From a bacterium (lineage in GTDB: Bacteria > Patescibacteriota > SICC01), in NCBI GenBank assembly GCA_030699935.1, contig JAUYKS010000014.1, positions 1-54,037 on the forward strand: DNA of 54,037 nt, in the 5' to 3' direction. Positions 2,949-7,323 of this stretch are shown here, one piece after another; the first letter of the stretch is position 1; every line of letters starts with the position of its first letter. Below the pieces are notes generated by a model that was not told the origin of the DNA, made no database searches, and was given only the letters and a program-made list of their open reading frames with translations. A program made the position numbers and the translations under genes.

Positions 2949-3215
2949 TTACTTCTTTTCCTCACGAAGGGTGTGCAGCGTGGCGACCACCGAGGGATTA
3001 TCGCTCGGAAGATACGTAACCCGGCTTCCGTATACTTCCTCGAGTGCGCCGAAGAACTCATCTGCCCACGAGGGCGAGAGCGAAAGCACGCCGGCAAAAT
3101 CGATTTCCACCTCGCCAGCGTCCACGTCCAGCGTGGGACGGATGGCGGCGAACGCCTCCTTGCCCGCGGGGCGGGAGGTCAGGACTTCTCCGAATTTTCT
3201 CAGTTCGATTCTCAT
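2949..3215 (-). CDS. STAS-like (DUF4325-type) protein
   Basis: EVEIDFAGVLSLSPSWADEFFGALEEVYG resembles the STAS-like DUF4325 core; 4-nt gap to ychF, 7-nt gap from upstream HATPase gene. Confidence 0.7.
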   Translation of the reverse strand: MRIELRKFGEVLTSRPAGKEAFAAIRPTLDVDAGEVEIDFAGVLSLSPSWADEFFGALEEVYGSRVTYLPSDNPSVVATLHTLREEKK

Positions 3216-3222
3216 TTACTTG

Positions 3223-3966
3223 TCAGTACTCGATCTTAGTTACTACACCACGAACGTTATTGCCCGCCAGACCTATCTTCAAGCGGCCGTCTTTTTTCCC
3301 GACGGTCGCGACGGCGGTTCCCGACTGCAGGCTGATGGCGATCGGGTTTCCCTCCGCCACGTCCCGCACGTACTTCAGGCCGTTTCCTCTTTGCTCGGGG
3401 GATCGCCCCGATACGTACTCGGTCATCGCGACCTCCAGGGCGGTGACGTCATCCTGCAAGTCGGCCCGGACCCTTGATAACGTCGCCCTGATTCCCACTC
3501 CTCGGTCGGCTAGCACGACGATACGCTTGTTATGGTCATACGAGAAAAATATGCCCGGCACGTCCGGCCAGCTCCCCAAGTTGTGGTCGAACGAATTGTT
3601 ACCGACTTCGCCGGCCACCGACGTCACCAGGGAAGCTGACGCGAGCCCGTCCGCACCTGCCTGGATGACTTTTGCCATGCGTTCCAGTCTCGCTCGGAAG
3701 CGGTCTTGCGTATCCGAATAGCAGCCCTGGGGAATTTCCGGTGCGACCTCGCTGGCGGCCCAGGCGTTCGCGAGGCCGAAGGAATCACCGCGGAACCGTT
3801 CGAGCGTTTCGCGCTGGTAGTACCGGTGCCCGCCGGGGCTTTTCAGGGCTCGTAACGTCCCGATGGCATCCCAGCGGCGCAGCGTCTGCATGGAAACCCC
3901 CAGGTAGGCGGCTGCTTCGCTGATCGGCATAGGACCGGACTCGCCAGATTTTGATCTGCTGTTCAT
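3223..3966 (-). CDS. MerR-type HTH fused to a GHKL/HATPase (anti-sigma-kinase-like) domain
   Basis: N-term ISEAAAYLGVSMQTLRRWDAIGTLRALKSPGGHRYYQRETLERF (MerR/BldC-like HTH); HATPase N box EVGNNSFDHN, G1 LADRGVGI, G2 RGNGLKYV. Confidence 0.85.
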   Translation of the reverse strand: MNSRSKSGESGPMPISEAAAYLGVSMQTLRRWDAIGTLRALKSPGGHRYYQRETLERFRGDSFGLANAWAASEVAPEIPQGCYSDTQDRFRARLERMAKVIQAGADGLASASLVTSVAGEVGNNSFDHNLGSWPDVPGIFFSYDHNKRIVVLADRGVGIRATLSRVRADLQDDVTALEVAMTEYVSGRSPEQRGNGLKYVRDVAEGNPIAISLQSGTAVATVGKKDGRLKIGLAGNNVRGVVTKIEY

Positions 3967-4034
3967 GTATAGATATGGTACTAAAAACTATACAAAAGTC
4001 AATATATCTATACAAAAAACCAAATATCTATACA
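3964..4034 (-). promoter_or_regulatory. promoter with four copies of a TGTATAGATAT-like box
   Basis: Boxes at 3966-3976 (inverted), 3984-3994, 4004-4014, 4024-4034 (last three 20 bp apart); TTGACT (4002-3997) -16- TACCAT (3980-3975) -8- ATG (3966) on minus strand. Confidence 0.7.
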
Positions 4035-4219
4035 TTTGTTAAACCCAACCAGGCCAGCGAGTTTGGCCAGCCTTGATGAAGTTGACTTTCGGCGTAACGA
4101 AGGTACTATTACCGGTTCGCACTTTACCATCGAGGTTCCCGGAGACGAGAAAAGACAAGGAGAAGAGGGCTCGTCCCCGGGAATCTCATAGGGAGATTTC
4201 CTTGTAAGGAAGGAATCAC

Positions 4220-5251
4220 ATGCCACGGTGGGATGATGAGGATGTTCACCTCGGTGGCCGAGGCGAAGGAGGGAGGAACGAACCGGAAAGTCCTCCGCCT
4301 GGAGCGATAATCGGATCGGTCGTCGGCGTCCTGTGTGTCATCGCCGTCCTGTTCCTGCTTATCGCCTGGCCGTTCAAGAAGCCGCCCGCCGACCAGTGGG
4401 CGGTCAGCTACGGAGGCGGGCCCTTCGAGAGCCAGCACTACCAGGGGACGTTCGAGCCCGGCTCGAGCTTCCGGTTCAACGGATGGTTCGACAAGTGGTT
4501 CGAGTACCCGGCGACGGTGCGCTCGTACATCGTCTCTAAGAAAGGTGACGAAGGTGACGTGGACAGCAAAGATGCGATCCTCGCCACGACCAGCGATCAG
4601 CAGTTGGTCCAGTACGAGATCGTCACCAACTTCAAGCTCAACACGAACCTGCTCCGGAAGTTCCACGAGCAGTTGGGATTGAAGTTCAAGGCCTGGGAGG
4701 AGAGCGGCTGGGACCGGATGCTTCGGGATTCGTTCCGACAGCAGCTCGAGAACAGCCTCCAGACCATTTCCCGGCGCTTCGACGTCGAGGAAGTCTGGTC
4801 GAGCAGTGCCGCCCTGGCAGAAATCGAGGATGAGCTCGGAATCGCGTTCAACCAGAAGGTCATTTCCCAGCTGGGGGATGAGTACTTCTGCGGCCCCTCG
4901 TTCATCCACGACGAACCGGTCGAGGTCGAAGTTCCTCGTCAGAAGAACGGCGAGATCGTGACCGAGATCGTGACCACGCAATGTCCTCCGCTCGAGGTGA
5001 AGGTCAAGCAGGTGACGATTCCCAAGGAAGTGCAGGACGCTTTCGAGGAAAACCGGACGTCGGAAATCAAGATCAAGACGAAGGAGAACGAAGTCCGGCA
5101 GCGGCGCGAAGAACGCCTGGCGATCCGCCAGCTTCAGAACGTCCTATCACCGAACTACGTCCTGCTCAAAGCGATCGAGGAAGGAAAGATCAAGTTCTGG
5201 GTCCTGCCCGGAAGTAGTGATTTGACCCTCCAGACTCCGAACGCTCCCTGA
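4220..5251 (+). CDS. SPFH/Band 7 (prohibitin-like) membrane protein
   Basis: N-terminal TM, then SPFH-like region (VQYEIVTNFKLNT...LRDSFRQQLENSLQTISRRFDVEEVW) and a charged coiled region. Confidence 0.7.
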   Translation: MPRWDDEDVHLGGRGEGGRNEPESPPPGAIIGSVVGVLCVIAVLFLLIAWPFKKPPADQWAVSYGGGPFESQHYQGTFEPGSSFRFNGWFDKWFEYPATVRSYIVSKKGDEGDVDSKDAILATTSDQQLVQYEIVTNFKLNTNLLRKFHEQLGLKFKAWEESGWDRMLRDSFRQQLENSLQTISRRFDVEEVWSSSAALAEIEDELGIAFNQKVISQLGDEYFCGPSFIHDEPVEVEVPRQKNGEIVTEIVTTQCPPLEVKVKQVTIPKEVQDAFEENRTSEIKIKTKENEVRQRREERLAIRQLQNVLSPNYVLLKAIEEGKIKFWVLPGSSDLTLQTPNAP

Positions 5252-5754: not shown

Positions 5755-7323
5755 ATGAAGCCAGCCAAACGGCCTATTCCTTCAGATGTCCGCGAAAAGG
5801 TGCTCGGGCGTGACGGGTATCAGTGTAATGAATGTGGTGCCCGCAAAGATGACGGGGCCGTTCTTCATTTGCACCACGTCATCGAAGAGCAGTTTGGCGG
5901 TACTGAGGATCCGGACAATCTTATTACGCTTTGCGACATTCATCACAATACGGTCCATATCGGTTTCCAGGCGTACTATCCGGAAAGCAGGAAGACCATC
6001 GTCCGGATGGCCGCCATCACCCGGGCGTTGCTTGATTTTATTTGGAGCGCCCTGCCCGTGACCCCGGCATGGCGAGCCCGCCTAGTCCTTAAGTTTCTGA
6101 CCGGCAAGACTAAGTTTCGTCGAGGACAATGGCCGGTGATCAAGGCGTTGTCTAGGAACGAGAACGTCTTATTCGTAACACCGACGGGATCAGGTAAGTC
6201 CTTGTGCTATCAGCTGCCGGGCCTGCTTCGCAACGATCCCACGTTGGTAATCTCTCCGTTGAAGGTGCTTGTGAGGGAGCAAGCTGCTTTTCTTGCCAAG
6301 AAGAAGATTCCGGCGACGTTTATCAATAGCGACGTTGGCGCGCAGGATAAGCGGAACCGGATAGCGATGATCCGCGACAAGCTTTTCCGATTCGTGTTCG
6401 TCACTCCCGAACGATTCTATGGAAAGTCTTTTCATGCGGATAGTCCGCTGCTGATTCGTTATGGACTGCTCGCTGTCGACGAGGCGCATTGCATTGATAA
6501 ATGGGGTCGGCATTTTCGACCGGCCTACGCGCAATTAGGGACCTTGCGGAATCATCTCAACAAGCCACCGACGCTGGCGCTGACCGCATCGGCTTCGAAG
6601 GACGCGCAGGACCGGATACTGCGCTCCCTCAAGATGTCGCAAGCGAAACGGGTGGTGACGGGTTTCTATCGACCGGAAATCCGCTTGAAGACAAAGCTTA
6701 TCAAGTCCCATCGCACCACCGATGATCGAGAGCTCTTTGCTCGAAAACTGGAAGCACTCACGCGCTTTGTAGACAATAAGCCGCAAAAGACGATCATCTT
6801 CGTACCTACGATCGGAATCGGCGACCGCATCCTTCCGGCCCTCCATGATTCGGTTCAATTCTTTCATTCCAAGAAAGATGCGAAGGAGCGGGAAGCAACG
6901 TACCAACGCTTCCGGGAGGGGAAACGAAGCATCCTGATCGCCACTTCGGCGTTCGGCATGGGACTTAATATTCCGGATATCCGTCGGGTAGTGCACTGGA
7001 GCATCCCGGCGAATCTAGAAGAGTATTACCAGCAAGTAGGCCGGGCCGGTCGGGATGGCAAGGTCGCTCAAGCACTCCTGCTGTATGCTCCCGGGGACGA
7101 AGGACTGACCCGATGGATGAATAAGAAAGCCTTGGAATCGGCAACCCACTTAGGAACGAAGGATCGCGCTTCCGTCGGGTCTATCGAAGAGCGGGAGCTG
7201 CGGGAAATGCTCGACTATTTGCGTGCAAAAGATAAATGGCGTTACGTACTCGACTACTTCGGGGAACGGCAGACCTGGCTCAGCATGTTTGCCAAGAGTC
7301 TGTGGCGATCCGTACGGTACTAA
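5755..7323 (+). CDS. HNH endonuclease domain fused to RecQ-like DEAH helicase
   Basis: HNH: RDGYQCNECG...LHLHHVIEEQFGGTEDPDNLITLCDIHH; helicase: TPTGSGKSLCYQLP, AVDEAHCIDKWG, TALTASA, ATSAFGMGLNIPDIRRVVHWSIP, YYQQVGRAGRDG. Confidence 0.9.
   Translation: MKPAKRPIPSDVREKVLGRDGYQCNECGARKDDGAVLHLHHVIEEQFGGTEDPDNLITLCDIHHNTVHIGFQAYYPESRKTIVRMAAITRALLDFIWSALPVTPAWRARLVLKFLTGKTKFRRGQWPVIKALSRNENVLFVTPTGSGKSLCYQLPGLLRNDPTLVISPLKVLVREQAAFLAKKKIPATFINSDVGAQDKRNRIAMIRDKLFRFVFVTPERFYGKSFHADSPLLIRYGLLAVDEAHCIDKWGRHFRPAYAQLGTLRNHLNKPPTLALTASASKDAQDRILRSLKMSQAKRVVTGFYRPEIRLKTKLIKSHRTTDDRELFARKLEALTRFVDNKPQKTIIFVPTIGIGDRILPALHDSVQFFHSKKDAKEREATYQRFREGKRSILIATSAFGMGLNIPDIRRVVHWSIPANLEEYYQQVGRAGRDGKVAQALLLYAPGDEGLTRWMNKKALESATHLGTKDRASVGSIEERELREMLDYLRAKDKWRYVLDYFGERQTWLSMFAKSLWRSVRY

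Follow-up and report, generated by a model that had tools for sequence, protein, structure and literature searches.

CapK/CapS is a pair consisting of a DNA-damage-activated GHKL kinase and a STAS-wHTH repressor (Chambers et al., EMBO J 2026, PMC13373217), in which the kinase phosphorylates the STAS repressor and repression is thereby relieved (PMC13373217); the system responds to ssDNA. For BldC, the structure of the protein-DNA complex assigns the base contacts to Arg30, located at a TpG step, and to Lys26, which makes neighbouring contacts (PMC5859096). In Patescibacteria, transcription control has been little studied because few of these organisms can be grown. Here, we analyze a window (the whole stretch of 54,037 nucleotides) from a patescibacterial genome, in which a BldC-like helix-turn-helix (HTH), a SpoIIAB-like GHKL domain and a STAS protein are encoded in two genes that lie behind a ladder of short repeated boxes. 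The parts as such are already known. The fusion, the ladder and the recognition code with its held-out test appear to be undescribed in the open-licence literature that we searched, and nothing on this module was found there under DUF4325, STAS-HTH-HATPase fusions or partner switching in the CPR. In our reading, the ladder is likely (probability about 0.78) the autoregulatory operator of a two-gene HTH-GHKL plus STAS module and is modulated by the STAS protein as in partner switching; binding or expression data are not available.

An HTH-GHKL protein and its STAS partner

The first gene of the module (3223..3966, minus strand) encodes a putative autoregulator of 247 amino acids, for which AlphaFold2 predicts an HTH, helices and a GHKL domain in this order (mean pLDDT 89.7). 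The BldC-like MerR-type winged HTH comprises residues 13-60 (3787..3930, minus strand). It is matched by the Pfam MerR model at 9e-10 and its predicted structure superimposes on BldC 6amk with an rmsd of 1.3 over 52 residues (Z 8.1; Z 8.3 for 6ama). The cut-off of the NCBIfam model HTH_BldC, 77 bits for the whole protein, is not reached (28.5 bits), while the excisionase model TIGR01764 scores 29.5 bits on the HTH and thus barely exceeds its cut-off of 28.8. The C-terminal part does not match any Pfam ATPase model, and the assignment of residues 82-247 (3226..3723, minus strand) as a SpoIIAB-like GHKL ATPase/kinase domain rests on the predicted fold and on residues of the N-, G1- and G2-boxes. 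Hsp90/TRAP1 and topoisomerases top the raw Foldseek list at low TM-scores; upon realignment to PDB chains SpoIIAB comes first with Z 11.4-12.0, an rmsd of about 3 and some 129 aligned residues, and the next rows do not exceed 8.8. The ATP-site residues E120, N124, D154, G156, G158, N195, G196 and L197 are invariant in 39 orthologs. What had been termed a HATPase in an earlier sequence-only reading of the window can thus be specified, on the basis of a predicted model, as a GHKL domain of the SpoIIAB kind that has a STAS protein as its partner.

This STAS protein (DUF4325, 88 amino acids) is encoded by the second gene of the module (2949..3215, minus strand). It is a bare single domain, and its predicted model (pLDDT 96.4) matches STAS antagonists as well as RsbS/stressosome proteins. 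The gene resides directly behind the HTH-GHKL gene in 85 loci, most of the others being cut short where the retrieved stretch ends. Ser49 of the STAS protein is invariant, while the phosphoserine position of SpoIIAA (Ser58) corresponds to Pro48 here, as judged from an ungapped alignment only. Phosphorylation of the STAS partner is inferred solely from homology and remains unproven.

In the window, the STAS gene is followed by ychF. Among 81 flanking proteins we found no conserved or recurrent neighbour of the module and no recurrent recombinase gene; as neighbouring genes are otherwise unconserved, the module is taken to consist of two genes. Some neighbours of module orthologs are restriction or Abi genes, and PADLOC mad1 of the MADS defence system matches all 39 orthologs collected first, at the HTH; in the window protein the match is limited to the HTH (3787-3930). 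An association with immune operons was rejected in the absence of any conserved neighbour. A virus or plasmid origin of the module was likewise rejected, as the search of viruses and plasmids yielded a single IMG/VR contig with an ortholog and phages and plasmids otherwise gave matches at the level of the HTH only.

Some neighbourhoods deserve mention in their own right. At one locus (L002), the module is immediately followed by a reverse transcriptase gene (3504-4535) on the opposite strand. A second, longer DUF4325 protein (356-aa frame) is encoded in genome G049 at contig 64, 34268-34429, some 4 kb away from the module, and similar long frames occur in G017, G059 and G073. In the window itself, an open reading frame for a RecQ-like helicase (5755-7323) carries an N-terminal HNH-like motif (CNECGARKDDGAVLHLHHV...), a fusion that looks unusual and was noticed by eye from the translation only.

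The operator and core promoter of the HTH-GHKL gene

Four boxes are present upstream of the HTH-GHKL gene. Box 1 (4024..4034, minus strand) and box 2 (4004..4014, minus strand) are exact copies of TGTATAGATAT, read from the sequence, and are situated upstream and immediately upstream of the -35 element, respectively. Box 3 (TGTATAGTTTT; 3984..3994, minus strand) has two mismatches and resides within the spacer between the -35 and -10 elements. These three direct boxes are spaced by exactly 20 bp. Box 4 (3966..3976, plus strand) is an exact inverted copy that is off the 20-bp phase, covers the leader and ends on the first base (A) of the start codon; G072 and G161 likewise contain an inverted copy at an outer distance of 29 bp from box 3. 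The core promoter consists of TTGACT (3997..4002, minus strand) as the -35 element, with TTGACA/TTGACT also present in G049, G072 and G161, and of TACCAT (3975..3980, minus strand) as the -10 element, separated by 16 bp and with eight nucleotides between the latter and the ATG. Reading the sequence directly therefore confirms what had been claimed before: the four boxes, the 20-bp distance of the direct ones, the inverted fourth box over the start and the TTGACT-16-TACCAT-8-ATG promoter that they surround. A Shine-Dalgarno-like core occurs in merely 10 of 107 orthologs, and the mRNA of the HTH-GHKL gene is probably leaderless, an inference from sequence alone.

Taken by itself, the number of boxes is weak evidence over chance: the 11-mer with up to two mismatches occurs four times in 54 kb where 1.6 occurrences are expected, and 5 of 100 shuffles reach four. 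Still, all four copies lie within 71 bp. The GC content is 22% in the operator versus 62% in the window. Decisive support for the boxes stems from the comparative data across orthologs and not from the count of the 11-mer.

An SPFH/band-7 gene (4220-5251) is divergent from the HTH-GHKL gene and starts about 186 bp from box 1. It is possible that both genes share a regulatory region.

Conservation and phase of the boxes across orthologs

HTH-bearing orthologs were collected from Patescibacteria (CPR) in two batches of 39 and later 68, giving a total of 107, and stem from metagenome-assembled genomes of Falkowbacteria, Peribacteria and Parcubacteria. For each offset d we counted the upstream regions containing a direct repeat that matches in 9/11 or more positions and compared the counts with shuffles. 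In the first batch, such repeats are present at d=10 in 14, at 20 in 24, at 21 in 16 and at 41 in 14 upstream regions (shuffle means about 1, maxima at most 7), and offsets other than the peaks are near background. The later batch yielded 25, 35, 28 and 19 at the same four offsets (shuffle means about 3, maxima at most 10). Repeats recur at 10, 20/21, 30 and 40/41 bp, and 9 bp is at background level. A weak box-like residual signal is present at the skipped middle turn and is confined to the 20-bp class. In G626, the 10-bp unit TGCATAGATT is repeated perfectly in tandem.

The consensus of the box is T-NNN-TAG-R-TT. A strong phased pair (T-NNN-TAG-N-TT) is found upstream of 80 of the 107 HTH orthologs and in 5% of dinucleotide shuffles, while it is present in only one of ten homologs that lack the HTH and keep the GHKL and STAS parts (Fisher p=9e-5). 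About one quarter of the orthologs stay below the threshold for a strong pair, some with a single box or a different motif. In the lineages inspected, the boxes overlie the core promoter: they form the -35 element itself (TTGCATAG), sit between -35 and -10 (TTGACA..TGTATAG) or follow the -10 element (TACATAG class).

Autoregulation by the encoded BldC-like HTH, as proposed in the sequence-only reading, would have been refuted by boxes that are not conserved upstream of orthologs. This is not the case: position, phase and architecture are conserved and the boxes are mostly absent without the HTH. Conservation, this dependence on the HTH and the covariation described below support the proposal, in the absence of binding data. 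The likeness to sites of the BldC type that was drawn there needs a correction: the repeats are arranged head-to-tail and do not abut at 9 bp, the unit being 10 bp with usually every second one good.

Two further observations concern homologs without this HTH. At loci L053, L054, L055, L056, L057, L058, L059 and L060, a GHKL protein without HTH is encoded, the STAS gene is still located behind it and no box ladder is present. Two GHKL-STAS homologs, L051 (G288) and L175 (G817), contain other HTH types and their operators are palindromic instead of direct repeats, anecdotal cases of natural HTH swaps.

Covariation of box bases with HTH residues

The three variable bases of the box follow the protein, and two of them could be tied to two residues of the HTH. 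Base 2 follows residue 31, with G for R, T for N and A for K, L, E or Q, and base 3 follows residue 27, with C for D and T for Q or M. In an unbiased scan of all HTH columns, residue 31 ranked top for base 2 and residue 27 for base 3, and the same result was obtained when the scan was repeated with 80 orthologs. Residues 27 and 31 align with Lys26 and Arg30 of BldC, and TG at box bases 1-2 fits the TpG contact of BldC Arg30. In the window protein, the residues concerned are Gln27 (codon at 3886..3888, minus strand) and Arg31 (codon at 3874..3876, minus strand).

The rule (R31 to G, N31 to T, any other to A; D27 to C, Q/M27 to T) was read from the first 33 orthologs and written down before the second batch was scored, in which it correctly predicted base 2 in 43 of 46 and base 3 in 33 of 34 cases. 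For base 3, this differs from the majority class with p=4e-7 when phylogeny is ignored. For base 2 the score tells less, since most boxes have G there and a constant guess of G would already reach 40/46. The rule is broken by G626, which combines N31 with G. Shared ancestry was taken into account with a tree built on the GHKL part alone, leaving out the HTH. On this tree, D27 and base-3 C each change 13 times, and 11 of these changes share branch and direction; independent pairs for residue 27 and base 3 amount to about 6:0 (p=0.03). For residue 31 there are just two independent pairs and a tree-based sign test cannot reach significance. As the bases covary with residues 27 and 31, which align with the base contacts of BldC, we consider it very likely that the ladder is bound by the encoded HTH, a conclusion drawn from sequence evolution without binding data. 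Evolution here supplies the evidence for binding in the form of a two-residue code by which a reader of the MerR/BldC type would recognize its boxes, and this code was checked against orthologs gathered afterwards.

Restriction of the ladder to its own gene

In the whole 762-kb genome (26 contigs), TGTATA-N14/15-TGTATA occurs only at this operator, and the 11-mer with up to one mismatch has two other matches, both isolated. A search for 20-bp-phased boxes elsewhere, as suggested in the earlier reading in order to find a regulon, was performed by pattern for exact phased pairs in G000 and 14 relatives; looser or single sites in the relatives are not covered. The TGTATA pair was found only upstream of the HTH-GHKL gene in G000, G049, G161 and G072, and the same is true for GCATAG-N14/15-GCATAG in 11 further genomes, save two coding-looking matches in G137. 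Exact phased pairs being limited to the module's own gene in these 15 genomes apart from the two strays, a genome-wide regulon was rejected.

Proposed mechanism

We propose that each box is recognized by the encoded protein through its BldC-type winged HTH, with Arg31 reading the TG of bases 1 and 2, residue 27 reading base 3 as well as base 4, and the wing presumably placed in the AT-rich end of the box. Boxes aligned along one helix face would be occupied by several protomers, which would cover the core promoter and the start site and repress the operon that encodes them. The attached GHKL domain, anti-sigma-kinase-like and of the SpoIIAB type, would probably set the oligomeric or DNA-bound state depending on nucleotide and STAS partner; the STAS protein may then engage or become phosphorylated, upon which the ladder would be released and the operon expressed. 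The residue-base assignments, the phase, the conservation and the restriction to the own gene are backed by sequence evolution. Repression rather than activation is inferred from the architecture, i.e. the overlap with the core promoter, and homology is the sole basis for STAS switching, the role of ATP, any phosphorylation and the signal. The STAS protein is the likely release factor because SpoIIAB-type proteins and CapK are switched via STAS partners, with the roles rearranged here.

Given the spacing of 20/21 bp, two adjacent good boxes cannot be connected by direct HTH-HTH contact of the BldC type. Any cooperativity would have to come from the GHKL/STAS part or from protomers bound weakly at the middle positions. 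The natural series of spacings (10, 20, 21 and 41 bp) together with the HTH swaps makes this question of oligomerisation directly testable.

A bolder reading, which in our view is as likely to fail as to hold, would see a patescibacterial class of single-protein switches in which GHKL acts on DNA via a fused BldC-type HTH. The ladder would be used in a skipped (every second turn) or full register, specificity would have been rewritten many times by two residues, STAS would serve as release factor and the promoter would replace the sigma factor in partner switching.

Alternative explanations

It is possible that the HTH binds the ladder and autorepresses as a passive BldC-like or ATP-set oligomer, with the STAS protein being structural or unrelated and without any phosphorylation or partner switch. 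The proline at the canonical phosphoserine position in this DUF4325 STAS family and the failure to find a second target promoter in the exact phased-pair scan of 15 genomes speak for this explanation. It is disfavoured by the STAS gene directly behind in 85 loci, with most others cut by the end of the stretch, by the invariance of the GHKL N/G1/G2 residues and of STAS Ser49, and by the CapK/CapS precedent, which operates via phosphorylation (PMC13373217).

Less well supported, and unlikely, is a CapK-like controller that acts on an anti-phage or other operon in trans or on downstream genes, with the ladder as part of a regulon. The kinds of domains are those of CapK/CapS, restriction or Abi genes are among some neighbours and PADLOC mad1 matches the HTH in 39/39 orthologs. 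However, no neighbour is conserved among the 81 flanking proteins, phased boxes are essentially absent elsewhere in 15 genomes, the next gene in the window is ychF, and CapK's own STAS sensor domain is absent from the predicted model.

That the ladder is a MerR-type activator site, or an excisionase-type architectural site for recombination, appears very improbable. The HTH does score as MerR and also, slightly over the cut-off, as excisionase (TIGR01764). MerR-activated promoters have spacers of 19-20 bp, whereas those found here measure 16-17 bp; moreover, the boxes lie over the -35 element, the spacer, the -10 element or the start, varying by lineage, and no recombinase gene is a recurrent neighbour. 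A classical MerR dimer on a palindrome was rejected on account of the 16-17 bp spacer and the direct repeats. Finally, boxes that belong to another regulator or arose by accident from the base composition of an AT-rich promoter, a view for which the weakly elevated count of the 11-mer could be cited, appear extremely unlikely in view of the covariation with the protein's own recognition residues, the held-out prediction and the absence from most HTH-less homologs.

Comparison with described systems

The autoregulatory, STAS-modulated operator that we favor is best viewed against the systems from which its parts are known. The lone HATPase SspH (PMC9137472) was set aside as not relevant. CvkR, the MerR-type repressor of type V-K CAST (PMC9938897), shares with our protein the MerR type, sites that overlap target promoters and a leaderless mRNA (predicted here), but it is a symmetric dimer on a palindrome and its C-terminal domain is unrelated to that of the HTH-GHKL protein.

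The protein and its boxes resemble the BldC family (PMC5859096) in the wHTH fold, in both positions that read bases, in the TpG for the Arg contact, in an AT-rich wing side and in head-to-tail sites on one helix face. BldC, however, is a 68-residue HTH alone that occupies abutting 9-bp repeats, whereas here the units measure 10 bp, mostly every second one is used (20/21 bp) and a GHKL domain is attached. As the 9-bp repeat and the family cut-off are not met, we do not regard the protein as a member of the BldC family.

With SpoIIAB/SpoIIAA and RsbW/RsbV, the module has in common a GHKL fold nearest to SpoIIAB, an adjoining STAS antagonist-like gene and invariant ATP-site residues. In the SpoIIAB/RsbW pairs the output is a bound sigma factor, while here it would be the fused DNA-binding domain, and the canonical STAS phosphoserine position is a proline. 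It is likely, though unsupported by binding or expression data, that the module acts like BldC and like partner-switching pairs.

As in CapK/CapS, a STAS protein is encoded alongside a kinase-like GHKL protein that has its HTH at the N-terminus, and autoregulation of the operon and partner-switch logic would also be shared, both being inferred here. The CapKS repressor is a STAS-wHTH protein on palindromes, whereas in our module it is the GHKL protein that carries the DNA reader, and the operator is a ladder of direct repeats. The CapKS kinase has the order HTH-STAS-GHKL with an HTH of unknown role, while the predicted model of our protein shows no STAS domain between HTH and GHKL; the STAS partner carries a wHTH in CapKS and is a bare 88-aa domain here. 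CapK/CapS has a conserved phosphoserine on helix 2 of STAS; in our STAS protein Ser49 is invariant, with Pro48 beside it at the position of SpoIIAA Ser58 in an ungapped alignment. CapKS adjoins an immune operon and no downstream immune operon is conserved in our case. The module is therefore not a CapK/CapS, as domain order and operon association are not met. It rather suggests that GHKL-STAS pairs, as in the CapK/CapS repressor switch, also exist in a rearranged form in which DNA binding falls to the kinase-like protein itself.
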